From Albidovulum litorale (GTDB taxonomy: Bacteria; Pseudomonadota; Alphaproteobacteria; Rhodobacterales; Rhodobacteraceae): a DNA stretch of 64,000 bases. Position numbers and translations under genes: made by a program. The notes under the pieces are model-generated. The model did no database searches, had not been told where the DNA came from, and worked only from the letters and a program-made list of their open reading frames with translations. Below are positions 27,030-46,502 of this stretch, piece by piece (position 1 is the first letter of the stretch; every line of letters begins with the position of its first letter). Where the stretch lies: the NCBI RefSeq assembly GCF_025751495.1, contig NZ_JAOWKZ010000001.1, positions 813,920 through 877,919 of the forward strand, written 5' to 3'.

Positions 27030-27061
27030 AATCCCTTCCCATCGGGCGCATTTAACGCGCG

Positions 27062-27080
27062 CCCGGGCAGGTGGCCCGGG
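27062..27080 (+). other. Strong hairpin in the infA leader
   Basis: CCCGGGC (27062-27068) pairs with GCCCGGG (27074-27080) around a five-base loop, 20 bases before the infA start. A second, weaker stem GGGCGC / GCGCCC (27044-27064) competes with it. They may end hydrolase transcripts or form an infA leader structure. The spot also coincides with a proposed inversion breakpoint. Confidence 0.45.
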
Positions 27081-27100
27081 TGAACAACAATGGAGTGACC

Positions 27101-27319
27101 ATGGCCAAGGAAGAAGGACTCGAATTTCCGGGCGTCGTGAAGGAACTCCTGCCAAACGCGACATTCCGGGTCGAGCTCGAAAACGGCCATGAGATCATCG
27201 CGACGATGGCAGGAAAGATGCGCAAGAACCGCATCCGCGTTCTGGCGGGTGACAAGGTTCAGGTGACGATGACGCCCTATGACCTGTCAAAGGGGCGGAT
27301 CAATTACCGCTTCAAGTAA
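27101..27319 (+). CDS. infA: Translation initiation factor IF-1
   Basis: 72 residues from ATG 27101 (GGAG upstream), the exact usual length. The sequence has the OB-fold hallmarks ([39 protein letters not shown]) and the C-terminal INYRFK. It binds the ribosomal A site during initiation. It heads the block infA-maf-rng-yacG on the plus strand. Confidence 0.98.
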
Positions 27320-27320
27320 G

Positions 27321-27905
27321 GTGCCTCCGCGCCTTGTTCTGGGATCGGGCAGCCCGCGCCGCAAGGAATTGCTGGCGCAGCTGGGGCTGGCCCCCGACGA
27401 CATCCGCGCCCCCGACATAGATGAAACGCCCCTGAAGGGTGAATTGCCGCGCCCCTACTGCGAGCGCATGGCGCGAGAGAAGGCGGCCGCTGTGATCGCC
27501 GCGGCGGATGAGGTCGTACTTTGCGCCGACACGACCGTTGCGCTTGGCCGTCGTATCCTCGGCAAACCGGAAAGCGCGGGCGAGGCGGCGGAGTTTCTTC
27601 TCAAGCTATCGGGCCGCCGCCACCGGGTCATCACGGCTGTCGCGGTTAAGCGGGGCGACAGGCTCTGGCAACGCAGCGTCGAGACGGTGGTGAAGGTCAA
27701 GGCGCTGTCGGACGTGGAGATCAACGCCTATCTCGCCTCCGGCGAGTGGCAGGGCAAGGCCGGGGCCTACGGCATTCAGGGACGCTTTGGTGCTTTCATT
27801 CCCTGGCTTCAGGGTTCCTTCACCGGCGTCGTCGGCCTGCCCGTAGCCGAGACGGCGCATCTTCTGGAAGCCGCCGGGATTGATACTCACGGGGTTGAGG
27901 CATGA
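27321..27905 (+). CDS. maf: Maf-like nucleotide pyrophosphatase
   Basis: 194 residues from GTG 27321, one base after the infA stop; this start gives the standard N-terminus [17 protein letters not shown]. Longer in-frame ATG starts would overlap infA. The nucleotide-site motif ([14 protein letters not shown]), the Cys-Ala-Asp-Thr motif ([11 protein letters not shown]) and [10 protein letters not shown] are Maf/YhdE signatures. It hydrolyses (d)TTP/UTP or modified nucleotides. Its stop overlaps the next ATG (27902). Confidence 0.93.
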
Positions 27906-28954
27906 AGGGTCGGGTCGTCGTTCTGGGAACCTATCGCGGGCGCGAGGCCGCGGCCTTGGTCGTCGATGGCCAGTTGCAGGACCTGCTGATCGAGGCGGGC
28001 GAGGCTGCGGGTTATGCGCCAAGCGCGATCCTGCGCGGGGTACTCGACCGGCAGATGAAGGGCCAGGGCGGGGCCTTCGTGAAACTGCCGGACGGCCAGA
28101 AAGGCTTTCTGCGCGAAACGAAGGGGCTCGCCCCCGGTCAGCCGGTCATCGTTCAGGTCTCGGGCTTTGCCGAGCCCGGCAAGGCGCTGCCGGTCACGAC
28201 GCGGCTGCTCTTCAAGGGGCATCTGGCCATCGTCACGCCCTCCGCCCCCGGCCTCAACATCTCGCGCCGGATCAGGGAGGCCGAGGATCGTTCGCGGCTG
28301 GAGGCATTGGCCACTGACGGTATGCAGGGTTCGGAATTCGGATTGATCATGCGCTCCGCCGCCGCCTTGGCGGGTGACGATGAGATCGCGGGCGAAATCG
28401 CGCGTATGCGGGAACTGGCCGAGGCCGTGAGTGGCGACCTAAACGGCGGGCCGGAACTGCTTGTCGACGCGGCGAGCCCGCATGAGGGAGCCGCCCGCGA
28501 CTGGTCCGATCCCGCCCCCGACGAAGTTGCGGAAGGCGAGGAGGCCTTTGCCCGCCACGGGGTGGAGGAGATGATCGACGCGGTTCTGTCTCCGGTGGTG
28601 AAACTGCCGGGTGGCGCCAATATGGCCATCGAACCGACGCGTGCGCTGATCGCCATCGACGTCAATACCGGCCCCGACACCTCGCCCGCCGCCAGCCTCA
28701 AGGCCAATATCGCCGCCGCCCGCGACCTGCCGCGCCAGCTGCGCCTGCGCGGGCTCGGCGGTCAGGTGACGGTCGATTTCGCGCCCATGCCGAAACGCGA
28801 CCGCGCGACGCTGGATCAGCAGTTGCGCGTGGCCTTCAAGGGCGAGGCCGCCGAGACCAGCCTTGCGGGCTGGACACCCTTGGGGAATTTCGAACTGCAA
28901 CGCAAACGCGACCGCTTGCCTCTGGCCACGATTCTGGGAAAGGGTGAGCCATGA
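27902..28954 (+). CDS. Ribonuclease E/G family protein (short RNase G-like form)
   Basis: 350 residues, shorter than RNase G (about 490). The N-terminus has an S1-like segment (residues 30-110) and the catalytic DNase I-like region contains AIDVNTG (metal-binding Asp) and [14 protein letters not shown]. The zinc-link and small domains of RNase E are missing. The gene sits between maf and yacG with four-base overlaps at both ends. Family membership is clear but its activity is less certain than for full-length enzymes. Confidence 0.88.
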
Positions 28955-29127
28955 CCTGCCCGATCTGCCAGAAAGAAACCGATCCGAAATACCGGCCCTT
29001 CTGTTCCAAACGCTGTGCCGATGTCGATCTCGGCCGCTGGCTGAACGGTTCTTACGCCATCCCGGCTGTGGAAGAGGACCTGCCCGATGAGGCCGATACC
29101 GGGCATCCGACGCAGCGCCCGAATTAG
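28951..29127 (+). CDS. yacG: DNA gyrase inhibitor YacG (zinc-binding)
   Basis: 58 residues. Four Cys in the pattern C-x2-C (CPIC at residues 3-6) and C-x3-C (FCSKRC at 18-22) form the YacG zinc site, followed by ADVDLGRWLNGSYAIP, the family signature. The acidic C-terminus is typical. YacG binds GyrB in E. coli. Its ATG overlaps the RNase stop (ATGA), completing the infA-maf-rng-yacG operon. Confidence 0.95.
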   Translation: MTCPICQKETDPKYRPFCSKRCADVDLGRWLNGSYAIPAVEEDLPDEADTGHPTQRPN

Positions 29128-29162
29128 CTGCCCCTCCGCGCAAGATAATCACGAAAATCCTC

Positions 29163-29191
29163 TGGACAGCCCCCTGCGTCTCGCCTAAACA
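29163..29191 (+). promoter_or_regulatory. Putative promoter of tRNA-Phe
   Basis: TGGACA (29163-29168), a 17-base spacer and TAAACA (29186-29191) end 28 bases before the mature tRNA, with near-consensus spacing. Confidence 0.5.
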
Positions 29192-29219
29192 CGCCGGGCC
29201 GGGCGCAATCGCCCCCGGT

Positions 29220-29295
29220 GCCCAGATAGCTCAGTTGGTAGAGCAGCGGATTGAAAATCCGCGTGTCGCTGGTTCGATTCCGGCTCTGGGCACCA
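29220..29295 (+). tRNA. tRNA-Phe (anticodon GAA), probable integration site
   Basis: 76 bases with encoded CCA. The acceptor stem GCCCAGA pairs with TCTGGGC, the anticodon loop TTGAAAA gives GAA, and the T-arm GGTTCGATTCC is standard. A decayed tyrosine recombinase begins 52 bases downstream and points toward the tRNA, the usual arrangement at a tRNA attachment site. I did not find a second copy of the tRNA 3' end in the window. Confidence 0.97.
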
Positions 29296-29347
29296 CTTAA
29301 ATGCCATAATTTATTGAATTTAATAGTCACTCCGGCGCCCCTTTCGG

Positions 29348-29930
29348 TTAGGGTTTGGCGCTTTTGGTGGAAGGTTTGACAAATTGCGCGCGGCGCGCGT
29401 TCTGGGTTTCGAGAGTCGCCATGGTTTCGCGGTTCTTCGCGGCCAGCTTCGCGGACCGGTAATAGTGCCGGACCTTGGAAAGGGTTTTCTGCCCAAGAAG
29501 GTCGGCAATGCGCCTTTCGTCGAGCCCCGCTTCGCGCAATGTCGTGGCCACCGTATGGCGCAGACCTTTGAGGGTGAGGCCGCTCTGGATCAGGTCGTTT
29601 TTCTACAGACCCATCGTGAAGCGATGCCAGACGGTCGAGAACCCATCATAGGTCCATGGTTCTCCGTGCGAATTGCACAGGACCGTATCTGCCTGGTGAT
29701 CGGGGATGGTGCTGAGTGCTTCCAAAAGAGTTTAACCGACCGGAATCGCGACTTCTTCTCCCGTCTTGCCGCGAACGCCCCAGATCGTATCGCCGTCGAT
29801 CTGGTCCTTGTGCAGCTTCAGCGCGTCCGAGCGCCCGAGAATGAGACGCTGACATCGGGCAAGCGCATGTGCCCTCAACGCCCGATACTCACGCGCCGTT
29901 GCTTCCCAGCGTCGATAGATCGAAGTCGAA
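29348..29930 (-). pseudogene. Tyrosine recombinase (integrase), decayed C-terminal catalytic half
   Basis: One minus-strand frame from about 29930 to the stop at 29348-29350 encodes integrase-like sequence interrupted by TAA (29732-29734) and TAG (29603-29605). Recognisable parts are GDTIWGVRGKTGEEVAIPVG (beta-hairpin Lys), NSHGEPWTYDGFSTVWHRF, LKGLRHTVATTLREAGLDER (Arg-His of the active site) and LLGQKTLSKVRHYYR (tyrosine region). The first active-site Arg region (LILGRSDALKL) looks altered and the DNA-binding N-terminus is absent. The 5' boundary is approximate and runs into the 3' end of the GntR gene. Confidence 0.85.
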
Positions 29931-30623
29931 ATCGCCCATGTAGGACGCGCTCAGGAACTTGACGAAGCGGTCGTGGAACTGGCGGGTGTGCGCATGGGCC
30001 AGTGTGTCGGCGCGCGCGATGTCCCGGTCGCGGATCGCCGCGATCATGTCAGCATGTTCCGAACCGAGCAATCGGTCACTGGTCGAGGCGCGCAGAAAGT
30101 CGAAATGCATATGCAGGATGCGGCGGCCTTCGTCCAGCAACTGGCCATAGCACCGAGCCAAGTAGGGATTCCGCCCCGCCTTTGCGATTGCCATGTGGAA
30201 GTCGCGGTTGGTGGCTGACATGGCGAGGTAGTCGTTCTTGGCGGTCGAGCGATCGAATGCGCGGGCTGCGTCCTGCATTTCAGCCAAGTCGTCCTCCGTC
30301 CGATTCTGCGCCGCGAGGCGGGTATTGATGCGCTGCAGAAAATCCAGAGCCTCGACATAGCGGGGAAAGCCCGCCACGTCGATCGGCGCCACCAGCGTCG
30401 AGCGGTTGGAAAGCATCACAACCAGCCCCTCGGCTGAGAGCCTCACCAGAGCCTCGCGCACGGGTGAACGCGACAGCGCGAATCTTTCGGCGAGCGAGGT
30501 TTCATCAAGCGGAATGCCGGGGGCGAGCGTGAGCGACAGGATCTCGTGCTTCAGTGTGTCGTAGACAAATCTCGCACCAGAACCCTTTCCCTGCCTCGTG
30601 CCATCCTGCGGAACTTCTTTCAT
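29889..30623 (-). CDS. GntR family regulator with FCD domain (hydroxyproline operon regulator)
   Basis: 244 residues from ATG 30623; longer in-frame starts would cross the promoter region. The winged-helix domain contains LSLTLAPGIPLDETSLAERF and SRSPVREAL; the FCD sensor domain covers residues about 95-230 with metal-binding-type positions (RDFHMAIAKAG, HADMIAAI, AHTRQFHDRF). It is divergent from the DapA-family gene, with operator-like sites between them. Its last ten or so codons lie on DNA that, in another frame, belongs to the integrase relic, so its C-terminus may be a replacement tail. Confidence 0.9.
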   Translation of the reverse strand: MKEVPQDGTRQGKGSGARFVYDTLKHEILSLTLAPGIPLDETSLAERFALSRSPVREALVRLSAEGLVVMLSNRSTLVAPIDVAGFPRYVEALDFLQRINTRLAAQNRTEDDLAEMQDAARAFDRSTAKNDYLAMSATNRDFHMAIAKAGRNPYLARCYGQLLDEGRRILHMHFDFLRASTSDRLLGSEHADMIAAIRDRDIARADTLAHAHTRQFHDRFVKFLSASYMGDFDFDLSTLGSNGA

Positions 30624-30659
30624 TTTCGTCGCGCCCCTACAAACGGCCTTACTGGGATG

Positions 30660-30724
30660 ATTGTAACGGTTATTGACTTGTCGGCAATTTGTCGACATGA
30701 AACTTGACGACATTATGTCGACAA
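30660..30724. promoter_or_regulatory. GntR/FCD operator cluster with divergent promoter
   Basis: Three related sites: TTGTCGGCAA (30678-30687), TTGTCGACAT (30689-30698) and ATGTCGACAA (30715-30724). The last two share the palindrome TGTCGACA, with centres 26 bp apart. This fits the TTGTnnACAA pattern known for FCD-type GntR proteins. On the minus strand TTGCCG (30687-30682) and TACAAT (30665-30660), 16 bases apart, form a likely gntR promoter overlapped by the first site. Confidence 0.65.
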
Positions 30725-30750
30725 AACCCCGCCAGCGAAAGGAAATTGCC

Positions 30751-31641
30751 ATGAGCTACAACGTCAAACTCACAGGCGTGCTGCCCGCGCTTGTCACGCC
30801 TTTCGGTGACGACGACCGGATCGACTTCAAGGCCTTCGAACGGCTGCTCACGCATTTCCGCGAGTGCGGCGTGACCGGCTGGGTTCCGAATGGCTCGACC
30901 GGCGAATACTTCAGCCAGTCGACCGCTGAACGCCGATCGGTGCTTCAGTTCGTCAAGGATTTCGCAAACCCCAATGAGCTTCTGATCGCCGGTACCAACG
31001 CTCCGGCAACGCGCGAGGTGATCGAACAGACGAAGATCGCGAAAGACATCGGCTACGACACCGTGTTGCTAGCGCCACCCTTCTATACCCGTCCGACGCA
31101 GGTCGAACTCATCCGGCATTATGAGGCGGTGCTGGACGCGGTCGACGTGAACATCGTGCTCTACTCCTACCCTTTGAAGGATGGCGCGGATATCAGCTTC
31201 GAACTTATGGACCATTTCGCTGACAATCCGCGGATCGTGGGCATCAAGGAAAGCTCAGGCTCGCTGCAGCGCGCCATCGCGATTTCAAGCCGCTACGCGG
31301 GCAAGATCCAACTGATATCGGGGTCAGACGACATTGCGCTTGATTTCATGTTCTGGGGTGCGGATGCGTGGATCTGCGGGCCGTCGAACTGCATGGCTAG
31401 GGCGTGTTGCGACCTTGACCGCGCCTACAGGTCCGGGGACCTGTCAAAGGCACGGGAGATGATGCGGACGCTTTACGGCGCGATGAACATTCTCGAATCC
31501 GGCAAGTTCGTGCAGAAAATCAAGTATGGTTGTGAGTTGCAGGGCTTGACGGTCGGCCAGTGCCGCGCGCCACTCGGGCCGCTTACAGATGAGGAAAAGG
31601 CGGAATTTCGCGCGGCGATGGAGCCGATCCTTCTCGGGTAA
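30751..31641 (+). CDS. DapA-family lyase/deaminase, probable 1-pyrroline-4-hydroxy-2-carboxylate deaminase
   Basis: 296 residues from ATG 30751 (AAGGAAA upstream). DapA/NanA-family TIM-barrel features are present: LPALVTPFGDDDRIDF, the GSTGEYFS phosphate-like loop, the Tyr in LYSYPLK and the Schiff-base Lys in GIKESSGS. The family includes dihydrodipicolinate synthase, sialic acid lyase and the deaminase of bacterial hydroxyproline breakdown. The two following genes encode an FAD amino acid oxidase and a proline-racemase-family epimerase, which favours the hydroxyproline role. The substrate is inferred from this context only. Confidence 0.85.
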   Translation: MSYNVKLTGVLPALVTPFGDDDRIDFKAFERLLTHFRECGVTGWVPNGSTGEYFSQSTAERRSVLQFVKDFANPNELLIAGTNAPATREVIEQTKIAKDIGYDTVLLAPPFYTRPTQVELIRHYEAVLDAVDVNIVLYSYPLKDGADISFELMDHFADNPRIVGIKESSGSLQRAIAISSRYAGKIQLISGSDDIALDFMFWGADAWICGPSNCMARACCDLDRAYRSGDLSKAREMMRTLYGAMNILESGKFVQKIKYGCELQGLTVGQCRAPLGPLTDEEKAEFRAAMEPILLG

Positions 31642-31675
31642 CGCGTCGCTTCCACAATCCAGGTCGAGTCGATCA

Positions 31676-32923
31676 ATGAACAAGGTCAAGAAGACCACTG
31701 TCGTCGTCGGTGCAGGTGTGATCGGCGCAGCTATCGCGTATGAGCTGCAAAAACGGGGACGACAGGTCATCCTGATCGATCGTGACGCGCCGGGACGCGG
31801 AGCCTCGTTTGGCAACATGGCTTCGATTGCCGTGACCGAATTCATGCCGGCCTCCCGGCCTTCGGTCTGGCGGCAGATTCCGGGGTGGCTACTGGATCCC
31901 GAAGGCCCGGTCCATGTGCGCCCGGGCTATATGCCCCGCCTGATTCCATGGTTCCTGCGCTTCCTCGCCGCCTCGCTACCCTCCCGGATGCGCGCGCTGG
32001 AGTCAGCAGGAGCCGCGCTTTGCGCCCGTGCACTGAGCGATACACAGGTGCTCTTGCGAGAAATCGGCGCACCGGAGGTGATATCCGAAACCGGCTGCCT
32101 GTCGCTTTACACGGACGAGGCTGAGTTCCGAGCCGACCGGGATCACATCGAAATTCTTGACCGCTTCGGCTTTGCTCATGAGGTCCTCGGTCCATGCGAC
32201 ATTCGCGACCTTGAGCCAGAGATCGCACCCGGCATCGGCAAGGCGGTTCTGTTTCCCGACAACCGGTCGCTGCGCGATCCCTATGCCTATGTGACCCGGT
32301 TGGCAGATAGGTTCGAGGGCCTGGGGGGCGAAATCCGACGGACAGCCATCACCGGTTTCACGCGGTCGTCGCGCATCTCGGGGGTGCAGCTTGATGACGG
32401 TACGGTTCTGGAGACCGACGAGGTCGTCGTGGCGGCAGGGGCGTTTTCGGGCCGACTTTCGCGCCTGCTGGGCGAACCCATGCCGCTTGAGACCGAGCGC
32501 GGCTATCACACGCAAATCATGGCGTCCGGCATCCGGCTTGGCCATTCGATCATCTGGCCCGCACGCGCCTTCATGGTCACGCCTACCGCAGGTGGCATTC
32601 GCGTCGGCGGCACGGTCGAGATGGCGGGCCTAGATGCACCGCCCGACTATCGGCGCGCCCGGATTACGGTGAAACGCGCCCGCGAGGCCCTGCCGAATCT
32701 GAGGGTAGAGGGTGCCAGCGAATGGATGGGCCACCGTCCGGCCTTTCCCGATACGATCCCGGTCATGTCGGCCTCTGCCAAGGTGCCGGGCGTTTACTAT
32801 GCGACCGGCCACGGCCATCTTGGATTGACCTATGCCGCGACCTGCGCGCGCCTGATGGGGAGGTTGATCGCGGGCGAGGCCCCCGAAATCGACTTGCGAC
32901 CCTATCGGATCGACCGGTTCTGA
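31676..32923 (+). CDS. FAD-dependent D-amino acid oxidoreductase, probable D-hydroxyproline dehydrogenase
   Basis: 415 residues from ATG 31676. The dinucleotide-binding motif is TTVVVGAGVIGAAIAYELQKRG, followed by the DadA-type continuation (LIDRDAPGRGASFGNMASIA) and a C-terminal flavin segment GVYYATGHGHLGLTYA. This is the DAO/DadA superfamily. In hydroxyproline catabolism such an enzyme oxidises cis-4-hydroxy-D-proline to pyrroline-4-hydroxy-2-carboxylate, which would be the substrate of the preceding gene product. It lies in one operon with both neighbours (gaps of 34 and 13 bases). Confidence 0.88.
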   Translation: MNKVKKTTVVVGAGVIGAAIAYELQKRGRQVILIDRDAPGRGASFGNMASIAVTEFMPASRPSVWRQIPGWLLDPEGPVHVRPGYMPRLIPWFLRFLAASLPSRMRALESAGAALCARALSDTQVLLREIGAPEVISETGCLSLYTDEAEFRADRDHIEILDRFGFAHEVLGPCDIRDLEPEIAPGIGKAVLFPDNRSLRDPYAYVTRLADRFEGLGGEIRRTAITGFTRSSRISGVQLDDGTVLETDEVVVAAGAFSGRLSRLLGEPMPLETERGYHTQIMASGIRLGHSIIWPARAFMVTPTAGGIRVGGTVEMAGLDAPPDYRRARITVKRAREALPNLRVEGASEWMGHRPAFPDTIPVMSASAKVPGVYYATGHGHLGLTYAATCARLMGRLIAGEAPEIDLRPYRIDRF

Positions 32924-32936
32924 AGGAGATCACACC

Positions 32937-33953
32937 ATGCACTGGAACCGAACCCTGCAGACCGTCGATGTGCATTGCGCCGGAGAGATCGGCCGGGTGA
33001 TCACCGCCGGTGTACTCGATATCCCCGGGGCTACGATGGCCGACAAGCTCAACCATCTGAACAAGGTCGATGACAGCCTGCGTCGGCTTCTCTGTTCCGA
33101 GCCACGATCGGGCCCGGCCGGGTCCTTTTGCCTTCTGTTGCCGCCAACGCTTCCTGAAACCGATGCAGGCTTCATCGTCCTGCAACCTGACCAGGCGCAT
33201 GCGATGTCTGGGTCAAATGCCATGTGTGCGGTCACCGCAATCCTTGAAACCGGCATGAAACCGATGCAGGAGCCGGAGACGGTCGTCACGCTCGATACTG
33301 CCGCCGGGCCGGTGCGCGCGGTTGCGGCTTGCAAGAACGGCAAGGTAACCCGGGTGACTCTGGACATGCCGCCTGCCTTCGTTGCCAGGAAAGCTGCACT
33401 GATTGAGACTGAGGCCTGGGGGGACGTCACCTATGACCTCTGCTTCGGTGGCGTCTTCTATGCCCTGGTAGATGTGGACCAGATCGGGTTGACGATTGTC
33501 CCAGAAACCGCGCGCGCGCTGGCGGAGGCGGGCGTCGCGCTCCGGTCCCTGATCGCCGCGGCAGAACCCGCACTGCATCCGACGACGCCAGCGCTCGACG
33601 GGCTGGCCTATGTCATGTTCCGCAGCACCGAACCGGACGGCGCGATCCGCACCTGCACCACGCTTCGCCCCGGCAGGGCGGATCGGTCACCCTGCGGCAC
33701 CGGGTCAAGCTCGCAGATGGCCGTGGCGTATGCCGACGGTCTGGTTCAGCCCGGTGATAGGCGGATCTCCCGCTCGATCATCGGTGGGGAATTCGTGACC
33801 GAATTCAGAGGTGAAACTGTGGTTGGACCTTTCAAAGCAGTCCGGAACAGAGTTTCGGGGCAATGCTGGATATACGCGATCACTCAGGTCGGATTGGATC
33901 CGAGTGACCCTTTTCCACATGGTTTCACTCTGTCCGACACATGGGGTGGATGA
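32937..33953 (+). CDS. Proline racemase family protein, probable 4-hydroxyproline 2-epimerase
   Basis: 338 residues; AAGGAG precedes the ATG by about seven bases. The fold signature is clear: VDVHCAGEIGRV at the start and RSPCGTGSSSQMAV near residue 245, carrying the second catalytic Cys. At the first catalytic position the usual MCGHG motif reads MSGSN, so the pair is Ser/Cys instead of Cys/Cys. Ser/Cys members of this family are reported to epimerise hydroxyprolines, while Cys/Thr members are trans-3-hydroxyproline dehydratases. It fits the first step of trans-4-hydroxy-L-proline degradation. Confidence 0.88.
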   Translation: MHWNRTLQTVDVHCAGEIGRVITAGVLDIPGATMADKLNHLNKVDDSLRRLLCSEPRSGPAGSFCLLLPPTLPETDAGFIVLQPDQAHAMSGSNAMCAVTAILETGMKPMQEPETVVTLDTAAGPVRAVAACKNGKVTRVTLDMPPAFVARKAALIETEAWGDVTYDLCFGGVFYALVDVDQIGLTIVPETARALAEAGVALRSLIAAAEPALHPTTPALDGLAYVMFRSTEPDGAIRTCTTLRPGRADRSPCGTGSSSQMAVAYADGLVQPGDRRISRSIIGGEFVTEFRGETVVGPFKAVRNRVSGQCWIYAITQVGLDPSDPFPHGFTLSDTWGG

Positions 33954-34193
33954 TGACAGAAAGGCCCGGTTCAGCGTCGTGCCTCCCGAGCGCTTAACAG
34001 ATCAAGTGCTGATGCCGAAGGACGCGGGCCTGACATCGGAAAACGGGTCGCGGTTCTGCGGCCGCACCCTGTACTGCTGTTGGTCGCGTGCCGAGCAGAA
34101 CTTCAAAAGAACGGGTGATTGAGAAAGCTCAGAGCACAATCGTTGAAACGCGGCGCGTGTGTCGTTGCTCAACAAATCGACCTGACTTGGCAC

Positions 34194-36043: not shown

Positions 36044-36120
36044 TCTGCCCCCCTTCCGCAGACGGAAGGTGCCGCCCACGAGGTAAGTCTAACGGATAAA
36101 CGGGAGTTCCCTTAGCGTTA

Positions 36121-36145
36121 CGGAGGCGCGCTTAAGGCGCCTCCG
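36121..36145. other. Intercistronic stem-loop between binding protein and permease genes
   Basis: CGGAGGCGC (36121-36129) pairs perfectly with GCGCCTCCG (36137-36145) around a 7-base loop. On the transcribed (minus) strand no T-run follows. Such hairpins after the binding-protein gene of ABC operons are known to stabilise the upstream mRNA and lower expression of the membrane parts. Read on the plus strand it is followed by ATTTATTTTT, but no plus-strand gene ends here. Confidence 0.6.
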
Positions 36146-36161
36146 AATTTATTTTTGGAGA

Positions 36162-37318: not shown

Positions 37319-37353
37319 AATCGAAAAGTCCATAGTTTAAAGGGGAAGCAGAG

Positions 37354-38589: not shown

Positions 38590-38694
38590 AACCTGAGGGC
38601 ATTATCTGTTCCAGGCACATGCAGCTAGGCTTCATTTGTACTTGGTTAGCCCCGCAGCTGTGCCATGATGTGGGCTGGCGGTTGCGTCAGGCGA

Positions 38695-39420
38695 TCAGGT
38701 CGTTGCAATACGGGCGACGCCGGGTGCGGCAGCGTCAGGTGGGGTGTAGCCGCCCAATCGTGAAGTGCGCAGATCGAGCCGGATCATGGCCTCGCACATC
38801 GCTATCGCCGAGACCACGCCGTCGATCACCGGCAGGCCATGCTCGGCCGAGAGGGATGCCGCAAAATCGGCCATTCCGGCGCAGCCGAGTACGATAGCCT
38901 CGGCCTTGTCCTCGGTGATGGCACGCGCGACCTCGTTACCGATGCGGGCGCGGGCCTGAGATCCGGGACGTTCAAGTTCAAGCACCGGCACATCAGAGGC
39001 GCGGACCCGGGCGCAGCGCGCTGCAAGCCCGTAGCGGATGAGGTTGTGTTCCAGAGCCGGCACCGATCGCGCCAGCGTCGTGACCACCGAAAACTTGTTC
39101 GAGAGCATTGAGGCCATGTGATAGGCCGCCTCGCCGATGCCGATCACTGGCCGGTCGGTCAGGCAGCGCGCGGCATCCAAACCGGTATCGTCAAAGCAGG
39201 CAATGACGACGCCATCGAAGCCTGCGGTCCGGCGGATAATGTCGAGCAGGCCCGGAACACACATTGCCTCATCATAGAAGCCCTGGATCGCCGGCGGTCC
39301 GTCCGCGGGATTCACGGCGATGATCTCGGTTCCGGGCGATGCGACGCGCCGGGCGGCCGCGCCGATCGTTTCGGTCATGTGACGGGTAGAGTTCGGGTTG
39401 ACGACGAGAATACGCATCAT
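38695..39420 (-). CDS. Asp/Glu/hydantoin racemase family protein
   Basis: 241 residues (a second ATG three bases in is equivalent). The two catalytic Cys are present: VIACFDDTGL (about residue 75) and VLGCAGMADF (about 180). The start RILVVNPNSTRHMTETI is typical of hydantoin racemases. It is the last gene of the LIV-type transporter operon, five bases after livF, so the imported compound probably needs racemisation. No hydantoinase or carbamoylase gene lies in the window. Confidence 0.85.
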   Translation of the reverse strand: MMRILVVNPNSTRHMTETIGAAARRVASPGTEIIAVNPADGPPAIQGFYDEAMCVPGLLDIIRRTAGFDGVVIACFDDTGLDAARCLTDRPVIGIGEAAYHMASMLSNKFSVVTTLARSVPALEHNLIRYGLAARCARVRASDVPVLELERPGSQARARIGNEVARAITEDKAEAIVLGCAGMADFAASLSAEHGLPVIDGVVSAIAMCEAMIRLDLRTSRLGGYTPPDAAAPGVARIATT

Positions 39421-39425
39421 GCCAC

Positions 39426-40148
39426 CTACAGGTCTCCGCCGAGATAGGCGGCCTTGATCCGGTCATCGCCCATCAGGTCCTTGCTGTTGCCCGACAGGGC
39501 CACCGAACCGGTCGACATCGCATAGGCGCGGTTCGAGATCGAGAGCGCCATGCGGCTGTTCTGTTCGACCAGAAGCACGCTTACCCCTTCGTCACGGCTG
39601 ATCGCGACGATCGCGCGGGCGATGTCCTGCACCAGTTTCGGCGCGATGCCGAGAGAGGGTTCGTCGAGGAGAAGCAGGCGCGGTTTGGCCATCAGGGCCC
39701 GGCCGATCACCATCATCTGTTGCTCGCCGCCTGACAGGGTTCCGGCCTGCTGGCCATAACGTTCCTTGAGCCGGGGAAAGCGCTCCAGCACGCTTTCGAG
39801 CGTTCGCTGGATGTCCGCCTTGTCGGTTCGGGTGAAAGCCCCCATCAACAGGTTGTCCTTTACCGACATATAGGGAAAGACCCTCCGTCCTTCGGGCACC
39901 ATAGCGATGCCTTTTCGCACGATCTCGGCGGCGGACATCCCGTCGAGCCGATCCCCCATATAGTGGATCTCGCCGGCGTGTATCGGCCTGAGACCCGTGA
40001 TCGCGCGAAGGATCGAGGATTTTCCCGCCCCGTTGGCACCGATCAGGGCGACAGTCTCACCCTCGTTCAGCTCGATCGACACCCCCTTCAGCGCATAGAC
40101 GTGGTCGTAGTAGAGCTCGACATCCTTGAAGTTCAGCATCTGGGTCAT
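39426..40148 (-). CDS. livF: Branched-chain amino acid-type ABC transporter ATP-binding protein (LivF)
   Basis: 240 residues. Walker A GANGAGKSS, signature LSGGEQQMM, Walker B LLLLDEPSLGIAP. Length and the motif spacing match LivF. One of two ATPases of the importer; it lies three bases after livG. Confidence 0.9.
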   Translation of the reverse strand: MTQMLNFKDVELYYDHVYALKGVSIELNEGETVALIGANGAGKSSILRAITGLRPIHAGEIHYMGDRLDGMSAAEIVRKGIAMVPEGRRVFPYMSVKDNLLMGAFTRTDKADIQRTLESVLERFPRLKERYGQQAGTLSGGEQQMMVIGRALMAKPRLLLLDEPSLGIAPKLVQDIARAIVAISRDEGVSVLLVEQNSRMALSISNRAYAMSTGSVALSGNSKDLMGDDRIKAAYLGGDL

Positions 40149-40151
40149 GGC

Positions 40152-40934
40152 CTACATCCCGATCGCCGCGTCTTCGCTGCCGAGATAGGCCTCGATGACT
40201 TTTTCGTTGGACTGGATTTCGGCCGGTGTGCCTTCCGCAATCTTCTCGCCGAAATTGATCACCACGATCCGGTCGGAGATCTTCATGACCGCCGGCATGT
40301 CGTGTTCCACAAGAAGCACGGTCACCCCGCGTTCGTCGCGCAGGCGACGGACAAGCGATACCATACGCATCGTCTCGTCGTGGTTCATGCCGGCGAAAGG
40401 TTCATCTAGCAGCAGGACCGTGGGATTCGTGGCCAGTCCGATGGCCATGCCGAGGGCGCGCAGATGGCCCTGCGGCAGGTTCGAGGCAAGCTCGTCACGG
40501 ATCGCGCTCATGCCGAGGAAGTCGATGATGTCATCGGCCGAGGCCCCGAATTCCGCCTCGTCAGCCCGCGCCTGCGAGGTTCCGAGGAAGAAGCCCAGCA
40601 GCGACGCCTTCGAGCGCAGGTGATGCGCCACGATGATGTTCTCGCGCACCGTCATGGACCGAAAGATCGTGGTTTCCTGAAACGTCCGCACGACCCCCAT
40701 CCGCGCCACCTTGTGCGGCGCGAGGTTCGAAATGCGTTGGCCCCGGAAGAGGACCTCACCCGAGGTGGTCTTGAGGAACGAGGCGATCAGCTTGAAGAGC
40801 GTCGATTTGCCTGCCCCGTTCGGGCCGATTACCGATAGAATCTCCCCCTCCGCCACGTCGAAGGAGATATCGTTGTTCGCGGTGAGTCCGCCGAAGCGCT
40901 TGGTCACGCCCTTGACTTGCAGGATGGGGCTCAT
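40152..40934 (-). CDS. livG: Branched-chain amino acid-type ABC transporter ATP-binding protein (LivG)
   Basis: 260 residues. Walker A GPNGAGKST, Walker B TVLLLDEPFAGMN and the LivG-type insertion with a DIIDFLGM segment. The signature region LPQGHLRALGMAIGLA differs from the canonical LSGGQ, as Gln-Gly replaces Gly-Gly; LivG proteins usually have LPYGxQR. Its ATG overlaps the livM stop. Confidence 0.88.
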   Translation of the reverse strand: MSPILQVKGVTKRFGGLTANNDISFDVAEGEILSVIGPNGAGKSTLFKLIASFLKTTSGEVLFRGQRISNLAPHKVARMGVVRTFQETTIFRSMTVRENIIVAHHLRSKASLLGFFLGTSQARADEAEFGASADDIIDFLGMSAIRDELASNLPQGHLRALGMAIGLATNPTVLLLDEPFAGMNHDETMRMVSLVRRLRDERGVTVLLVEHDMPAVMKISDRIVVINFGEKIAEGTPAEIQSNEKVIEAYLGSEDAAIGM

Positions 40935-41899
40935 TTGCGCACCCCCTTGCGTTCAAAGAGGCTGAGGACGCCGTTGGGCAGGAAGAGCATGAGCAAGATC
41001 AGAAGCGACGAGTAGATCAGCAGCTGGAAACGCCCGGTCGTGAACAGAAGATCCCAGCCGAAATACAGCATCAGCGTGCCGAGCATCGGACCGAAGACGT
41101 AACCCAGACCGCCGAGGAAGCAGTTCAGCATGAAGTTCACGCTGTCCGCGACCTGGAAGGAGGAGGGGTAGATCGACTGCGAGATTGCCACGAACATCGC
41201 ACCTGCAATGCCGCCGAAGAAGGATGAGATCGAATAGGCCAGCACCCGGAGATAGGCGGTATTCACGCCGATGGAGGCCGAAAGCTCCTCGTTCTGCTGC
41301 AAGGACCGGCAGAGATGGCCGAGCCGGGAGTTGACGATGCGATAGAGGGCTGCGTAGCAGATCACCATGAGGAGGACCGCGACGAGGTAGAAGGCCAGCT
41401 TGGGGTTCTCCAGCGTGGCAAAATCCGGGATCAGCGTCAGGCCGAAGACCGACACCTCTCCCGGCAGCGGGATCGAGGTGATACCTTTGGCACCGTTCGT
41501 GACGGGCAGCGCCAGAGCCGAGAGGCGTCCGACCTCGGTCAGCACGAGTGTGACCATTGCGAAGTAGACGCCGCGCAGCCGGAGGATCGGCAGGCCAATC
41601 AGAACCGAGAGCCCCGCGCAGAACAGTCCCGCGAGTGGCAGTGTCGCCCAGAAGCTGAAGCCCGCCTTGGTGATCAGGATGGCGGAAACATAGCCGCCCG
41701 CCAGCGCATAGGCGCCCTGACCGATATTGATCCGGCCGATATAGAAGGTCAGCCAGACCCCGGCCGACGCGATGGAGAGAAGCGCGACCGATGTGAGCGT
41801 GTAGTAGAAATCCCACCTCCCGCTGATCGCGATCAGCCAGGGGACGATCACAAAGACTGTGATCAGAAAGGCGCCGAGTCCAAGCAGTTTCGCCTTCAT
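40931..41899 (-). CDS. livM: Branched-chain amino acid-type ABC transporter permease (LivM)
   Basis: 322 residues with about nine or ten helices. The motif YIGRINIGQGAYALAGGYV is the LivM hallmark, and the C-terminal region GGLGYVFGPMLGTL is typical. It pairs with LivH to form the channel. It starts four bases after the livH stop. Confidence 0.9.
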   Translation of the reverse strand: MKAKLLGLGAFLITVFVIVPWLIAISGRWDFYYTLTSVALLSIASAGVWLTFYIGRINIGQGAYALAGGYVSAILITKAGFSFWATLPLAGLFCAGLSVLIGLPILRLRGVYFAMVTLVLTEVGRLSALALPVTNGAKGITSIPLPGEVSVFGLTLIPDFATLENPKLAFYLVAVLLMVICYAALYRIVNSRLGHLCRSLQQNEELSASIGVNTAYLRVLAYSISSFFGGIAGAMFVAISQSIYPSSFQVADSVNFMLNCFLGGLGYVFGPMLGTLMLYFGWDLLFTTGRFQLLIYSSLLILLMLFLPNGVLSLFERKGVRK

Positions 41900-41903
41900 C
41901 CCC

Positions 41904-42773
41904 TTACCCCCACGGCTTGCCCATCAGGCCCTGAGGCCGGATGGCGAGGAACACCATCAGCGAGGCGAAGATCACCAGATAGGTGATGTCGCCATAGGCC
42001 GCGAGAACGGTCAGCCCGATACTTTCCATCATGCCAAGGATGAAGCCGCCTGCGATGGCGCCGGATATGACCCCTGCGCCGCCGATCATGATCATCATGA
42101 AGGCCTTGATCGAGGTCGGTCCGCCCATGCCGAGATTGATGCCGGTGATGGTCACCAGCAGCCCGCCGACAAGGCCCGCCAGCATGGCGCCAAGCGCGAA
42201 GCCGATCATCGAATAGCGCTTGACGTCGACCCCCATCAGCTCGGCCGCCATCCGATCCTGCGCCAGAGCCCGCATGGCGCGCCCGGCCTTGGTGTATTGC
42301 ATGAAGAGGATGAAGCCTGCGATCATCGCGATGGCCAGCACCCCGATCAGGATACGGTCATAGGGCATGATGATGCGGAAATCCCAGTTGAGGACACCAT
42401 TCACGATCTTCGGCACGCCGCGCTGTTTTTCTCCGAAGACAAGAAGGATCACCGCGTCGAGGAAGAAAGCGATGCCCGCCGCCAGCAGCATCGTGGATTC
42501 CTCGCGCTTCGACTTGCGGATTACCGGCGCAAAAAGGAACTTCTCGATCAGCGCGCCCACCACCGCCAGCACGATGGCTGAGGCAAAGAGACCGACGATG
42601 AACGGCAGTCCGAACTGCGCGACGATAGTATAGGTAACGAAACCGCCCAGCACATACATCTGGCCATGGGCGAAGTTCAGCACGTTCATCAGCGAGAAGA
42701 TAAGCGTCAGCCCAAGCGCAATAAGGGCGTATTGGGCACCCAGATAGAGCCCATTTGCGATGATCTGTTCCAT
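41904..42773 (-). CDS. livH: Branched-chain amino acid-type ABC transporter permease (LivH)
   Basis: 289 residues, about eight helices. The start GLYLGAQYALIALGLTLIFS and the motif NFAHGQMYVLGGF are LivH signatures. It follows the binding-protein gene after 76 bases. Confidence 0.9.
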   Translation of the reverse strand: MEQIIANGLYLGAQYALIALGLTLIFSLMNVLNFAHGQMYVLGGFVTYTIVAQFGLPFIVGLFASAIVLAVVGALIEKFLFAPVIRKSKREESTMLLAAGIAFFLDAVILLVFGEKQRGVPKIVNGVLNWDFRIIMPYDRILIGVLAIAMIAGFILFMQYTKAGRAMRALAQDRMAAELMGVDVKRYSMIGFALGAMLAGLVGGLLVTITGINLGMGGPTSIKAFMMIMIGGAGVISGAIAGGFILGMMESIGLTVLAAYGDITYLVIFASLMVFLAIRPQGLMGKPWG

Positions 42774-42849
42774 CGGTGTCCTCGGATTGACGGGGCCCGG
42801 CCGCGTATTGGGAAAGGCCGGACCCCTATGAGACGGGGTTCAGACTGAG

Positions 42850-44037
42850 TCAGTCAACCTGAGCCACGAACAACGTCTCGAAAGCGCCGTCTTTGAACAC
42901 GTTGACAACCAGAGGCACTGATACCTGGCGCTTTTGCCCGAAGGAGGATGTGCCGACATAGGTCAGCTTGGCGTCGCCCACCATGTAGGGGTTCGGCGCT
43001 TCGAACGTGTCCATCGTCGTCTTGAACGCCTCGACATCGGTCATCGCGGCGGGGTTCGCCTTGATGGTTTCGAGGATGTATTCGAGCGCATAGACCTTGG
43101 TGTTCGACTCGTCGTTGTACTCGCCGAACATCTTGGTGTAGCGGTCGACGAATTCGCGCATCGCATCCGAGGCGAGTTCCGGAGTGGAGGCGCCGCCCAC
43201 CGAGATGAAACCGTTGGCGAGTTCCCCCGCGCCTTCCTGAAGCACGGTCGCGTCCTGCGCGGTCTCGGTCGAGATCAGGCCCTCGTAGCCAAGCTCGCGG
43301 GCGGAGCGAATGAGTTGCGGCGCGTTCGCAGGCGAGACGCCCGACAGGACCAGAAGATCCGGCTGGGTCTGGATCACCGGCAGCAGAACCGGTGTGAAGT
43401 CGGTCGTGTCAACCTGATAGGTCACGCTGTCCGAGACGACTTCGAGGCCGAGCGCCTTGGCTGCCTCGACACCACCGTCACGCTGCGACAGCGGGTCGGA
43501 TTCGTTCGCGGCGACGAACGCAACTTTCTGTACACCCTCGTTCTCCATCAGGTGCTTGTAGATCGCCGGGCCCGACTGATAGTTCGCGACCATCCCCAGG
43601 ACCGCGTTCGAGGCGGGGGCGGTATAGAGCTCTTTCGGGAAGGCATACGGGAAGTACATGATCCCGTTCTGCTCGGCCACTGGGCGGACGGCGGCAGCAC
43701 CGTCATCGACGTTCGGACCGACGACGTAGTGAATACCTTCCTGCGCCATCTTCTCCATGCCCGCAATCGCGCGCTTGGGGTCCTTCTGGTCGTCGAAGGC
43801 GACGATCTGGATGTCATATTTCTGACCGTCGATTTCGTACCCGCCAAGCTCGTTAAGCCATGCGGCGCGGGTTTCCATGGATCGCTGGTTCGAGATGCCC
43901 CAGGCAGCGGCCGGCCCCGAGGTCACGCCGACAAAGCCGATCTTCAGGACCGGATTTTCGGCATGCGCCATGCCAAGGAACGACAGGCTTGCCACGGCGG
44001 CCAGCGCCGATGTCTTGAGCAAAGTGCGTCTTTTCAT
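42850..44037 (-). CDS. LivJ/K-type periplasmic substrate-binding protein
   Basis: 395 residues from ATG 44037. The N-terminus MKRRTLLKTSALAAVASLSF ends at AHA, a signal peptide with a twin-basic start (Arg-Arg but without a full Tat motif). The mature part (VLKIGFVGVTSGPAAAWG...) belongs to the type I periplasmic binding proteins used by LIV and amide transporters. It is the first gene of the six-gene operon ending with the racemase. The ligand is unknown; an amino acid derivative or hydantoin is plausible. Confidence 0.88.
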   Translation of the reverse strand: MKRRTLLKTSALAAVASLSFLGMAHAENPVLKIGFVGVTSGPAAAWGISNQRSMETRAAWLNELGGYEIDGQKYDIQIVAFDDQKDPKRAIAGMEKMAQEGIHYVVGPNVDDGAAAVRPVAEQNGIMYFPYAFPKELYTAPASNAVLGMVANYQSGPAIYKHLMENEGVQKVAFVAANESDPLSQRDGGVEAAKALGLEVVSDSVTYQVDTTDFTPVLLPVIQTQPDLLVLSGVSPANAPQLIRSARELGYEGLISTETAQDATVLQEGAGELANGFISVGGASTPELASDAMREFVDRYTKMFGEYNDESNTKVYALEYILETIKANPAAMTDVEAFKTTMDTFEAPNPYMVGDAKLTYVGTSSFGQKRQVSVPLVVNVFKDGAFETLFVAQVD

Positions 44038-44118
44038 CTGATATCTCCCTGAATGCCATTCGGTTCTTTTCCGACGCGCCATGAGGCCAGAGCCGGTGCG
44101 GCAATATCATTCAGCAGG

Positions 44119-44187
44119 ATTGTTAACAATTCTGTCAACAAAAATATGATAGTCTTGTCGACGCATATGCTATCTTGTTGGACAAAG
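44119..44187. promoter_or_regulatory. Second GntR/FCD operator cluster
   Basis: Four related sites between the divergent binding-protein and gntR genes: ATTGTTAACAAT (44119-44130, a perfect palindrome), CTGTCAACAA (44132-44141), CTTGTCGACG (44154-44163) and CTTGTTGGACAAAG (44174-44187). They match the TTGTnnACAA theme. A minus-strand TTGACA (44140-44135) overlaps the second site and may be the -35 box of the importer operon. Confidence 0.6.
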
Positions 44188-44240
44188 ATCCGGCCTATAT
44201 CTGTTGGTAACGCTTCCTTTGACCTTGGAAAAAAAGCGCA

Positions 44241-44960
44241 ATGACCCTACCCGGCCCAAACAGCGAACAGCTTTCAACCGCCGAGGAGGTGGCCGAAGAA
44301 CAGATTGTCGACCGCATTTTCGAAGCGGTGATCGAACAGCGCCTGCCGCCGGGGACGAAATTATCCGAATCGGCGCTCTGCGAGGTGTTCGGCGTCGGCC
44401 GCATGCGCATTCGCCGCAGCCTTCTCTTGCTGGCCAGCCGCGAAGTCGTCGAACTGCACTCCAATCGCGGCGCCTTCGTCGCGCGGCCGACGGCCGAACA
44501 GGCGCGCGAGGTGTTTGAGGCCCGGCAGGCGATCGAACCCAACGTCGCACGCATGGCGGCCAAACGCGCAGCAGCCGAGGATATCGCGGCCCTCGCCCGT
44601 CACCTGGAACTGGAATCGCAGGCCCATGACAGTGGCAACCGCCGCGACGCGATCAGGCTGTCGGGCCAGTTCCACACGATGCTCGCACAGATCGCCGGAA
44701 ACGGCGTTATGCTCAGGATGATCAAGGAACTGATCACCCGCACCTCTCTCATCATCGGGATCTATGGCGCGCCGGGCGTAACCAATTGCCGCGACGATGA
44801 CCACGCTGAACTGATCGACGCCTTGCGCAAGTCTGACGACCGACGCGCAGCCGAGATTATGGCAGAGCACTTGCGCCATATCGAAGAGCGGGTCGATCTG
44901 ACCGCCCGACCCGGTGCTGGCGTCGATCTTGTTTCGGTCTTTGGCCGCCGCGACGCATAG
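44241..44960 (+). CDS. GntR family regulator with FCD domain
   Basis: 239 residues. Winged-helix part: VDRIFEAVIEQRLPPGTKLS and SALCEVFGVGRMRIRRSL; the FCD effector domain follows (residues about 85-225, with FHTMLAQIAGN and DDHAELIDAL carrying typical metal-site residues). It diverges from the LIV-type operon and is the natural regulator of it. The hydroxyproline GntR 14 kb away belongs to the same subfamily and has similar sites upstream. Confidence 0.9.
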   Translation: MTLPGPNSEQLSTAEEVAEEQIVDRIFEAVIEQRLPPGTKLSESALCEVFGVGRMRIRRSLLLLASREVVELHSNRGAFVARPTAEQAREVFEARQAIEPNVARMAAKRAAAEDIAALARHLELESQAHDSGNRRDAIRLSGQFHTMLAQIAGNGVMLRMIKELITRTSLIIGIYGAPGVTNCRDDDHAELIDALRKSDDRRAAEIMAEHLRHIEERVDLTARPGAGVDLVSVFGRRDA

Positions 44961-45423
44961 CTCAGGCAACACCGGAGATGGAGCGCGCCGGAGAGTGGTA
45001 CCAAAGGCACCCTTTGCGGGCTTGGACGGCATTGATCTGAAGCCCTGCCGTGTTCCAATCGAACATTGGCGCCGCGCTCAGCGGTCACCCGCAATGTGGT
45101 CGAAAAATCGGATTCCGTCGGTATGTGGCAGCCCTTACCAGACGTTCGAAGCCGAAAACCGTCCAACGGCAGCGCCCTAGAAATGCTGCGGACCCGATCA
45201 AGGTCAGCATCGACGAGCAGCACGCAGTATCATTGCATTCTAACGAACGCCCCTGCGGGTCGCACCGGCCTTGCAGACGTTTTCTTGCAATGTTTGCGGT
45301 CATATTTGTCAGCGTCGTCGTCGCGCCATGCCGCCAAAAACTGGTGGGAATGCCCGCCACATGGACACAAAAAACCGGTGGGCGGCTTCAGCGCTCAGTG
45401 CAGGCTAACGGCGTAGCCCGGTG
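44961..45423. other. Intergenic region without recognisable gene
   Basis: 463 bases. Open frames on both strands (for example plus strand 45050-45526, partly antisense to the GNAT gene) give Cys/Arg/Ser-rich translations with no family resemblance. It looks like decayed or non-coding DNA at the end of the accessory region. The imperfect direct repeat AAAACTGGTGGG / AAAACCGGTGGG (around 45337 and 45370) is the only structure noted. Confidence 0.5.
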
Positions 45424-46011
45424 TCAAAGCGCCCTGATCCAGAACTGCATCGGCTTCACGCTCTCTTCCGCCTCGCCGATATCCTTCCAGGCGTATTCCG
45501 CCACAGCGCCCTCAAGCGGGGCGTAGCCGCGTTTGCGCCAGAATGTATCGAGCGGGCGGTAGGTTGCGGGGTGAAGCGGGTGATCCTCAGGCCTGACGAC
45601 CCGGCAGAAGGCCGAATGGGTCCGGCCAAGATTGCGGGCATGCGCCTCGCGCGTGTCGAAGAAGGCATGACCGACCCCCCTGCCCCGGTAGTCGGGCAGC
45701 AGAACCGATTCCGCGCAGTAGAAGATGTCGGTCAGGGGAATGCCGGTCTCGGCGAAGGCTGCACCAAACTCGTCGCCGTGTTCTTCCATCGGCGTCCCGG
45801 TCGAGGCGCCGATAAGGCGGCCATTGTCGAAGGCGCCAACGAGGATCGCATTCTCACTCTTGCGGTAGGTCTTGAGGTAGCGCCGCTCATAGTCAAGATG
45901 CCCGTCGTAGAGGTACGGCCAGTCGCGGAAAACGGCGATGCGAAGACGCGCGACATCATCGAGCGCGGCTTCCAGCGCCTCACCGGTCAGGGCGAGGACG
46001 TCGACGCTCAT
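45424..46011 (-). CDS. GNAT family N-acetyltransferase
   Basis: 195 residues. The acetyl-CoA-binding region is seen at VLLPDYRGRGVGHAFFDTRE (R-G-x-G-x-G/A type, about residues 105-125). The ATG overlaps the stop of the NTF2-like gene, so the two form a small operon. Substrate unknown. GNAT domains of this sort occur fused or next to carbon-nitrogen hydrolases in some bacteria, and a stand-alone hydrolase of that type lies at 26.1 kb. Confidence 0.88.
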   Translation of the reverse strand: MSVDVLALTGEALEAALDDVARLRIAVFRDWPYLYDGHLDYERRYLKTYRKSENAILVGAFDNGRLIGASTGTPMEEHGDEFGAAFAETGIPLTDIFYCAESVLLPDYRGRGVGHAFFDTREAHARNLGRTHSAFCRVVRPEDHPLHPATYRPLDTFWRKRGYAPLEGAVAEYAWKDIGEAEESVKPMQFWIRAL

Positions 46012-46406
46012 GCAGACACCTGCCGGATCCAGTCCTGGAGGTTGTAGTAGGTCGTCACACGCGTGATCTTGCCGTCCTTGAGGTCGAAGAACCCGCCCGC
46101 GGGCAGCACATACTTCTGCCCCCGCGCCTCGGGCAGGCCGGGATCGGTCTTCAGATACGTGCCGTTCACCACGAATTCAGCTGCGCCCCGCGTGCCCGCG
46201 TCATTGGAAAAGACCACCATGTCGGTCAGCTCTTCGCGGTAGGTCTCGTTCATGTGGCGGCAGAACTCGGCGAAGGCCTGCTTGCCCAACCGCGTCGCAC
46301 CCTCGTTCACATGATGGGCGAAATCGTCATGCAGGGTTTCCAGCATGGCGTCGAGGTCGCCCCGGTTGAAGGCGGCGTAATAGGCTTCGATCGTGGCGCG
46401 GGTCAT
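46008..46406 (-). CDS. NTF2-like/SnoaL-type protein
   Basis: 132 residues from ATG 46406 (GGGAGA at good spacing; a longer start at 46436 is less likely). The sequence ATIEAYYAAFNRGDLDAMLE and later VTTYYNLQDWIRQV is typical of the NTF2-like cone fold used by ketosteroid isomerase-related enzymes. Function is unknown; it is coupled to the following GNAT gene. Confidence 0.85.
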   Translation of the reverse strand: MTRATIEAYYAAFNRGDLDAMLETLHDDFAHHVNEGATRLGKQAFAEFCRHMNETYREELTDMVVFSNDAGTRGAAEFVVNGTYLKTDPGLPEARGQKYVLPAGGFFDLKDGKITRVTTYYNLQDWIRQVSA

Positions 46407-46502
46407 CGGTTGTCTCCCATTTGTCGCGGCGGACATTAGGGCAGCGCGGGGATGCCGCCCATTCCCAATGCGTCAGTTTATTGTGCACAAGCGCCGCCGC
46501 GG

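Follow-up and report, generated by a model that had tools for sequence, protein, structure and literature searches.

A conserved infA gene cluster of Albidovulum litorale split by a 3.3-kb inversion and, probably separately, by an island-like insertion at tRNA-Phe

Introduction

Genomic islands that are associated with tRNA genes start at the 3′ end of the tRNA, have an integrase gene beside it and carry accessory cargo. The pheV island of Escherichia coli with its tyrosine integrase has been described as an example (PMC11537424), and small inversions, which change the gene order between related bacterial chromosomes, are a studied kind of event, too (PMC12190745). Islands at tRNAs and small inversions are both already known. 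Here we analyse a locus of Albidovulum litorale that bears the marks of both. The window, i.e. the whole stretch of 64,000 nucleotides that was analysed (G000:C3:813920-877919, from a 4.05-Mb draft genome in 13 contigs), holds a gene cluster with infA, the gene for IF-1, in which a block from a nitrilase gene to tRNA-Phe is inverted and borders on 16,095 bp of additional DNA. We explain this layout, with a probability of about 0.87, by two separate events, a 3.3-kb inversion in the common ancestor of the window strain (G000) and its sister species (G001), and island-type DNA at the 3′ end of tRNA-Phe.

Like known small inversions, the block has been flipped between genes with its internal order intact, and it is common to two sister species. 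Nothing about it is categorically different; here, the cut falls in a family-conserved cluster that holds infA. The insertion resembles tRNA-associated islands in that it starts at the tRNA 3′ end, has an integrase-gene fragment beside the tRNA and carries accessory cargo, in this case three transporter/catabolic cassettes. It differs from them in that the integrase is a decayed C-terminal fragment and a second attachment repeat was not found. A literature search on the gene names of the cluster gave only unrelated work among the papers listed.

Results

The sister genome delimits the inverted block. In blastn comparisons, Defluviimonas aestuarii JCM 18630 (G001; its locus, on a 317,835-bp contig, appears in the two samples below as L002 and L112) is collinear with the window over positions 17946-23237 (93.7%), 23227-29299 (91.0%) and 45395-52941 (89.8%). 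Window 1-17945 and 54326-64000 are matched, in unchanged order, by two more stretches of G001 (87.8% and 88.0%). The genes of G001 read GNAT(+), tRNA-Phe(−), yacG(−), RNase(−), maf(−), infA(−), nitrilase(−), glyoxalase(+) and WYL regulator(+), the block being flanked by GNAT and by the left neighbour that it has in the window, too. From this collinearity it becomes clear that only the region from nitrilase to tRNA-Phe (window ~25.96-29.30 kb) is inverted, and that the remaining 16.1 kb are extra in the window. The inversion is therefore real, 3.3 kb long and common to the window strain and its sister species. The original prediction, which was made from gene order, had instead taken a 19-kb segment to be inverted; the sister genome contradicts this, since it has the 3.3-kb block inverted without the other 16.1 kb.

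Gene order in relatives was evaluated in two overlapping sets of loci, and the window belongs to neither. The first comprises 80 phosphatase-anchored loci from named genomes (the best 80 of 578 confirmed), the second 25 stretches from all 21 other genomes of the genus, with two stretches each from G004, G010, G017 and G019, where the cluster is split over two contigs. Genes were placed by tblastn (E ≤ 1e-8, identity ≥ 35%), and 'absent' means not detected. The usual order in both sets, all on one strand, is hisD-UPF0262-phosphatase-NTF2-GNAT-nitrilase-infA-maf-RNase E/G-yacG-tRNA-Phe; NTF2, GNAT and nitrilase were undetected in various genomes.

Phosphatase and infA are found together in 51 of the 80 loci, on the same strand in 49 and on opposite strands in two (L002, the sister species, and L009, a metagenome-assembled genome), in line with the expectation that the two genes are co-directional in Rhodobacteraceae. 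Only 13 of these 51 loci have them ≤400 bp apart; NTF2, GNAT and/or nitrilase intervene in 30 more, and none of the three was detected in six. Nitrilase and the following infA share a strand wherever both are present (24/24 among the 80 loci, 22 of them with a gap ≤400 bp; 17/17 among the 25 genus stretches, all ≤400 bp), and so do phosphatase and the following NTF2 (32/32 and 17/17). GNAT and nitrilase co-occur in 22 of the 80 loci, 21 times on the same strand and once, in L002, on opposite strands. Among the genus stretches, 13 of the 14 with both genes have them on one strand and ≤400 bp apart; the fourteenth, L112, is the L002 locus again. On the basis of these strand and adjacency counts, phosphatase/NTF2 and nitrilase/infA are ancestral junctions that are intact in the window, and the broken junction is GNAT/nitrilase.

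The true breakpoints are thus GNAT/nitrilase and the 3′ side of tRNA-Phe. They had been sought at 27.03-27.10 and 46.41-46.50 kb, i.e. at junctions that are same-strand in every relative locus with both genes, and the order nitrilase then NTF2, which a flip there would yield, occurs in 0 of 80 + 25 loci (overlapping sets, many without one gene). The view that a conserved cluster is split here and needs an inversion for its reunion stands, given the collinear GNAT/nitrilase in 13/14 genus stretches. Close relatives with the order of the window had been named as a point against an inversion, and the comparison cuts both ways: the closest relative has the inverted block, whereas the other 13 of 14 genus stretches are collinear.

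A tree of seven proteins joins G000 with G001 (0.92), then with G019 (0.99) and then with G020 (0.98); some genomes lack two or three of the proteins, and other nodes, including the placement of G004, are weak (0.35-0.61). Since 13/14 genus stretches and the wider family are collinear and the tree pairs G000 with G001, the inverted state is, as judged from these comparisons, derived.

Inverted repeats, which are frequent at inversion breakpoints without being necessary there, were not detected above the level of shuffled sequence at the true breakpoints. The best inverted match in G001 scored 26, which equals the top of 300 shuffles (mean 17.9), and five window comparisons gave raw scores of 14-16, shuffles having been run for G001 only. 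The earlier statement that the breakpoints lack inverted repeats thus holds at the true ones as well. Between 25900 and 29450, no sigma-70-like promoter or terminator was found (shuffle means 0.5 and 3.1), although alphaproteobacterial promoters may not fit the consensus.

Other loci deviate from the usual order as well. L135, from the metagenome-assembled genome G010, has infA (−) at a contig edge and hisD-UPF0262-phosphatase (+) 2.9 kb off, which represents another rearranged version of the cluster. In G017 (L132, L115) the cluster is cut between NTF2 and GNAT, and none of the window's genes were found on the far sides. A separate observation concerns sequence identity. Window 25946-26645, which includes the left inversion junction as well as the first half of the nitrilase gene, matches G001 at 97-100% per 100 bp, compared with 88-91% in the next 400 bp to the right and 87-99% in the 800 bp to the left. 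Similar patches lie at ~18.75-19.15 and 50.09-50.49 kb. Such patches may stem from recent recombination between the two species.

The second element of the locus is the insertion. Collinearity with G001 stops at 29299, only 4 bp past tRNA-Phe, and 16,095 bp in the window stand against 149 bp in G001. An integrase-gene fragment lies next to the tRNA (Table 1). Its intact counterpart, a 371-aa integrase (PF00589), adjoins tRNA-Phe in G014; G008 has a 95% relative in the same place beside tRNA-Phe, and G010 has 208 residues of the same integrase (93%) near a contig edge. No such fragment was found at the G001 site. When 16 genus stretches were compared 3′ of tRNA-Phe (0.9 to 6 kb), the DNA differed in most of them. 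Clear similarity beside the tRNA is confined to three pairs, G013/G021, G005/G007 and G008/G014, and G018 and G008 have a common gene ~4-5 kb from tRNA-Phe.

The gene layout and strands of the original prediction were confirmed by coordinates (Table 1). UPF0262, hisD and murA lie on the minus strand beside the phosphatase gene. The names infA, maf, yacG, hisD and murA were carried over from that prediction and are consistent with length and synteny.

Table 1. Positions of the inverted block, the insertion and neighbouring features in the window
Feature	Position	Strand	Basis or remark
Left inversion junction, glyoxalase/WYL-regulator pair (−) joined to nitrilase 5′ end	25954-26123		common to G001
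Carbon-nitrogen hydrolase (nitrilase superfamily), first gene of inverted block	26124-27029	+	Pfam PF00795; synteny
infA (IF-1), inverted block	27101-27319	+	open reading frame; 91-100% identity across genus stretches
maf-like gene, inverted block	27321-27905	+	open reading frame, synteny
RNase E/G family gene, inverted block	27902-28954	+	Pfam PF10150; 94% in G001
yacG-like small gene, inverted block	28952-29127	+	tblastn, synteny
tRNA-Phe (GAA), right end of inverted block and island insertion site	29220-29295	+	ARAGORN; same position after yacG in relatives
Insertion of 16,095 bp, without counterpart in G001 (149 bp instead)	29300-45394		blastn against G001 L112
Decayed C-terminal tyrosine-integrase fragment, 3 stops	29339-29842	−	74% to G014 integrase residues 201-368 of 371
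Cassette 1: GntR/FCD regulator (−), DapA-family (+), FAD oxidoreductase (+), proline-racemase family (+)	29889-33953		Pfam
Cassette 2: sugar-type ABC transporter (−), ROK regulator (+)	34152-38617		Pfam
Cassette 3: Asp/Glu/hydantoin racemase family and branched-chain amino-acid type ABC transporter (−); GntR/FCD regulator 44241-44960 (+)	38699-45214		Pfam
Right edge of insertion, 3′ of GNAT; GNAT side of broken GNAT/nitrilase junction	45395-45423		G001 collinearity resumes at 45395
GNAT acetyltransferase, ancestral upstream neighbour of nitrilase gene	45424-46011	−	PF00583; synteny
NTF2-like (SnoaL) gene	46008-46436	−	PF12680; same strand, downstream of phosphatase in relatives
Low-molecular-weight phosphatase	46503-46961	−	PF01451

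The three cassettes have matches at other places in the genus. Cassette 1 is predicted to serve, probably, the catabolism of hydroxyproline or D-amino acids. Its NCBIfam matches are under the cut-offs, except for dapA just at the cut-off, and the racemase-family protein matched the hydroxyproline dehydratase and epimerase models far under theirs; because NCBIfam leaves the substrate unfixed, hydroxyproline catabolism is what we infer rather than read from a model. At the nucleotide level, the best match of this cassette is in G019 (C229, 84.7% over 4,090 bp), with weaker, partial ones in G005, G017 and G012. Cassette 2 matches G001 C17:33292-37746 (87%) and G019 C248 (83%), with shorter matches elsewhere, and cassette 3 matches G001 C17:96-6622 (84%). 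Among the matches listed, long ones to cassette 3 also occur in G013, G008, G011, G009, G012, G017, G007 and G005, and partly in G018, which amounts to at least nine other genomes of the genus. On G001 contig C17 (1-40000; L153, L154), cassettes 2 and 3 are ~27 kb apart. Since the cassettes match other loci in relatives, the island, as far as these matches indicate, unites pieces that are located elsewhere there. As a side observation, 13.4 kb between cassettes 2 and 3 on G001 C17 match scattered places of the window's genome.

On the left side of the block, homology of relatives to the glyoxalase/WYL pair stops at 25949-25953 in eight stretches (blastn). The pair occurs elsewhere, without the neighbours it has in the window, in 8/8 genus stretches (G021, G020, G002, G006, G019, G017, G014 and G012, with a G019 stretch of 7.4 kb and a G012 stretch that starts at the end of its contig). 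The pair as the ancestral neighbour of the nitrilase-to-tRNA-Phe block is therefore unsupported, all eight stretches showing it alone. Among the matches listed, efflux genes and tRNA-Ala are at most ~10 kb apart in G019, G006, G002 and G014, with a phosphorylase gene on another contig, and in G021 these three lie far from one another. In the window, the efflux genes and tRNA-Ala lie left of the block; in G014 they are found on the contig of the cluster, ~115 kb away from it, and the cluster has the orientation there that is expected before a local flip. The genus is much rearranged.

GNAT and nitrilase are also separated in two other genomes, G019 (L130, L113) and G004 (L133, L126). In both, GNAT is followed by genes that we take, judging by their sequences, to encode an SDR, an FAD oxidoreductase, a flippase-like protein and a CoA-transferase (with a presumed sulfotransferase-like gene intervening in G019), and genes that we likewise take to be meaB, DUF3108 and hrpB precede nitrilase. 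Comparison with L156, L157, L158, L160, L168 and L169 revealed that meaB and the SDR gene are adjacent in 6 of 16 other genomes with meaB surroundings (G000, G001, G020, G021, G009 and G016); no SDR gene was found beside meaB in the other 10 of the 16. G019 and G004 thus have the same exchange between the GNAT/nitrilase and meaB/SDR junctions, with the joins meaB-nitrilase and GNAT-SDR. Genes of the meaB/SDR row were near the cluster in 0 of the 80 loci (flanks ≤10 kb).

The meaB gene and the cluster lie on one contig in the same orientation in G021 (~390 kb apart) and in G014 (~36 kb apart; the SDR row is not there, and G014 has no detected GNAT or nitrilase). Because of this common orientation, a plain inversion would not yield the joins of G019 and G004. 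The transfer of the exchange between these two genomes was considered and rejected, as the two do not group in the trees for gnat, SDR, FADox, nit and meaB; several nodes in the five trees are weak (0.08 in SDR). In the gnat (0.98) and FADox (0.97) trees, G019 is placed with G000/G001. Caution is advisable with G019, a draft in ~570 contigs with a contamination of 6%; yet the same joins are present in two assemblies, whose DNA is ~71% identical there.

A palindrome was found at both exchanged junctions, at GNAT/nitrilase in G013 and at meaB/SDR in G000 and G001. A loose form occurs 5 times in 1.09 Mb, against 3 times in shuffled sequence; one of the 5 copies, at window 56601, has a different loop. 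A tighter form has 4 (1 in shuffled sequence), all at exchanged junctions, but the loci had been chosen around such places. In a wider sample, the type GGTGGGTT..AACCCACC turned out to be a dispersed, often paired repeat, located at 12 distinct positions in G013 (319 kb sampled) and at 5 in G000 (400 kb sampled; raw counts of 24 and 9 stem from two overlapping patterns; no shuffled control). For this reason, the palindrome is no evidence for a junction-specific mechanism and was rejected as such. Its sites include L119 (6587 and 6617), L156 (10587), L157 (9245), L175, L176, L182, L186 and L187.

Discussion

From the comparison with the sister genome and the wider family, it is reasonable to propose the following course of events. 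In the common ancestor of G000 and G001, nitrilase-infA-maf-RNase E/G-yacG-tRNA-Phe would have been inverted by cuts in the short GNAT-nitrilase gap and just 3′ of tRNA-Phe. Because these cuts fell between genes, the internal order of the block was kept, and the block would now have to be transcribed from its own promoter or from one near the new join. Island-type DNA would then have settled at the 3′ end of tRNA-Phe, either in the lineage of the window strain or already in the ancestor, in which case the sister lost it later. An integrase presumably made the insertion, as suggested by where the fragment lies, by related integrases beside this tRNA and by the beginning of the insertion 4 bp past it.

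Several points weigh against this explanation or restrict it. The island's G+C content lies only a little lower, at 0.604 versus 0.624 and 0.643. No copy of the tRNA-Phe 3′ end was found at the right edge of the insertion; with up to three mismatches allowed, the tRNA itself is the sole match in the whole window. The longest exact direct match between the insertion edges is 7 bp and the longest inverted one 9 bp (shuffles: mean 7.6, up to 14). As a second attachment site was not found, the integration step is a presumed one, and the integrase fragment could predate the cassettes. Since a direct repeat at the far edge was not found, we file the element as an island-like insertion, possibly decayed, and not as an intact integrative element. 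Further rearrangement may have taken place to the left, because the DNA 3′ of tRNA-Phe is too variable to tell the ancestral neighbour and the glyoxalase/WYL pair is elsewhere in relatives. Finally, the first break might predate the separation of G000 and G001, given that G019 has a different break at this gap. One clean inversion is the simplest reading, not the sole one.

Two alternatives to the two-event explanation deserve attention, although both are unlikely. A single inversion of 19.4 kb (~25.96-45.42 kb) would presuppose that the island was already 3′ of tRNA-Phe, that the ancestor flipped everything and that G001 later lost the island. Such a flip restores GNAT-nitrilase, too, and the DNA 3′ of tRNA-Phe is often variable in the genus. 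However, the G001 site has neither island nor integrase fragment, the loss would have to leave an unrelated 149 bp, and two of the cassettes are on another contig in G001. It is about as improbable that the tRNA-Phe integrase or another site-specific recombinase made the inversion by acting on an inverted attachment-like sequence near GNAT/nitrilase: one breakpoint is at most 186 bp from the 3′ end of tRNA-Phe, where this integrase family occurs, but no inverted repeat between the junctions exceeds the shuffles and G001 has no fragment of this integrase at the site.

An assembly error would be conceivable in a draft of 13 contigs, yet both inversion junctions are also present in the separately sequenced G001, and only the island edges rest on one assembly. 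Since two separate assemblies have both junctions, their misassembly is very unlikely, and we give an error in the window's genome hardly any weight. Least of all can we uphold a 19.4-kb inversion between 27.03-27.10 and 46.41-46.50 kb, which joins phosphatase to infA, an adjacency (≤400 bp) seen in 13/80 family loci, but breaks nitrilase/infA and phosphatase/NTF2, which are same-strand in all loci with both genes, and leaves unexplained a sister genome with the block inverted and without the 16 kb.

The evolutionary reading of the locus has been corrected, a cluster with the IF-1 gene is seen to tolerate cutting at one particular gap, and the tRNA-Phe at the cluster end emerges as an insertion site for accessory genes in the genus. 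The part worth following is the repeated breakpoint. We tentatively consider, with somewhat more doubt than confidence, that the GNAT/nitrilase gap is a reused rearrangement site in the genus, with independent cuts in the ancestor of G000 and G001, in G019 and in G004; as G019 adjoins G000/G001 in the tree, the number of separate cuts may be two instead of three. A recurrence of both breakpoints in two lineages, G019 and G004, would speak for a common mechanism or for strong selection on which breaks are tolerated, and not for random breakage. With the same gap and the same partner junction used in two lineages, it becomes testable whether breakpoints are placed by mechanism or by selection at the borders of transcription units.

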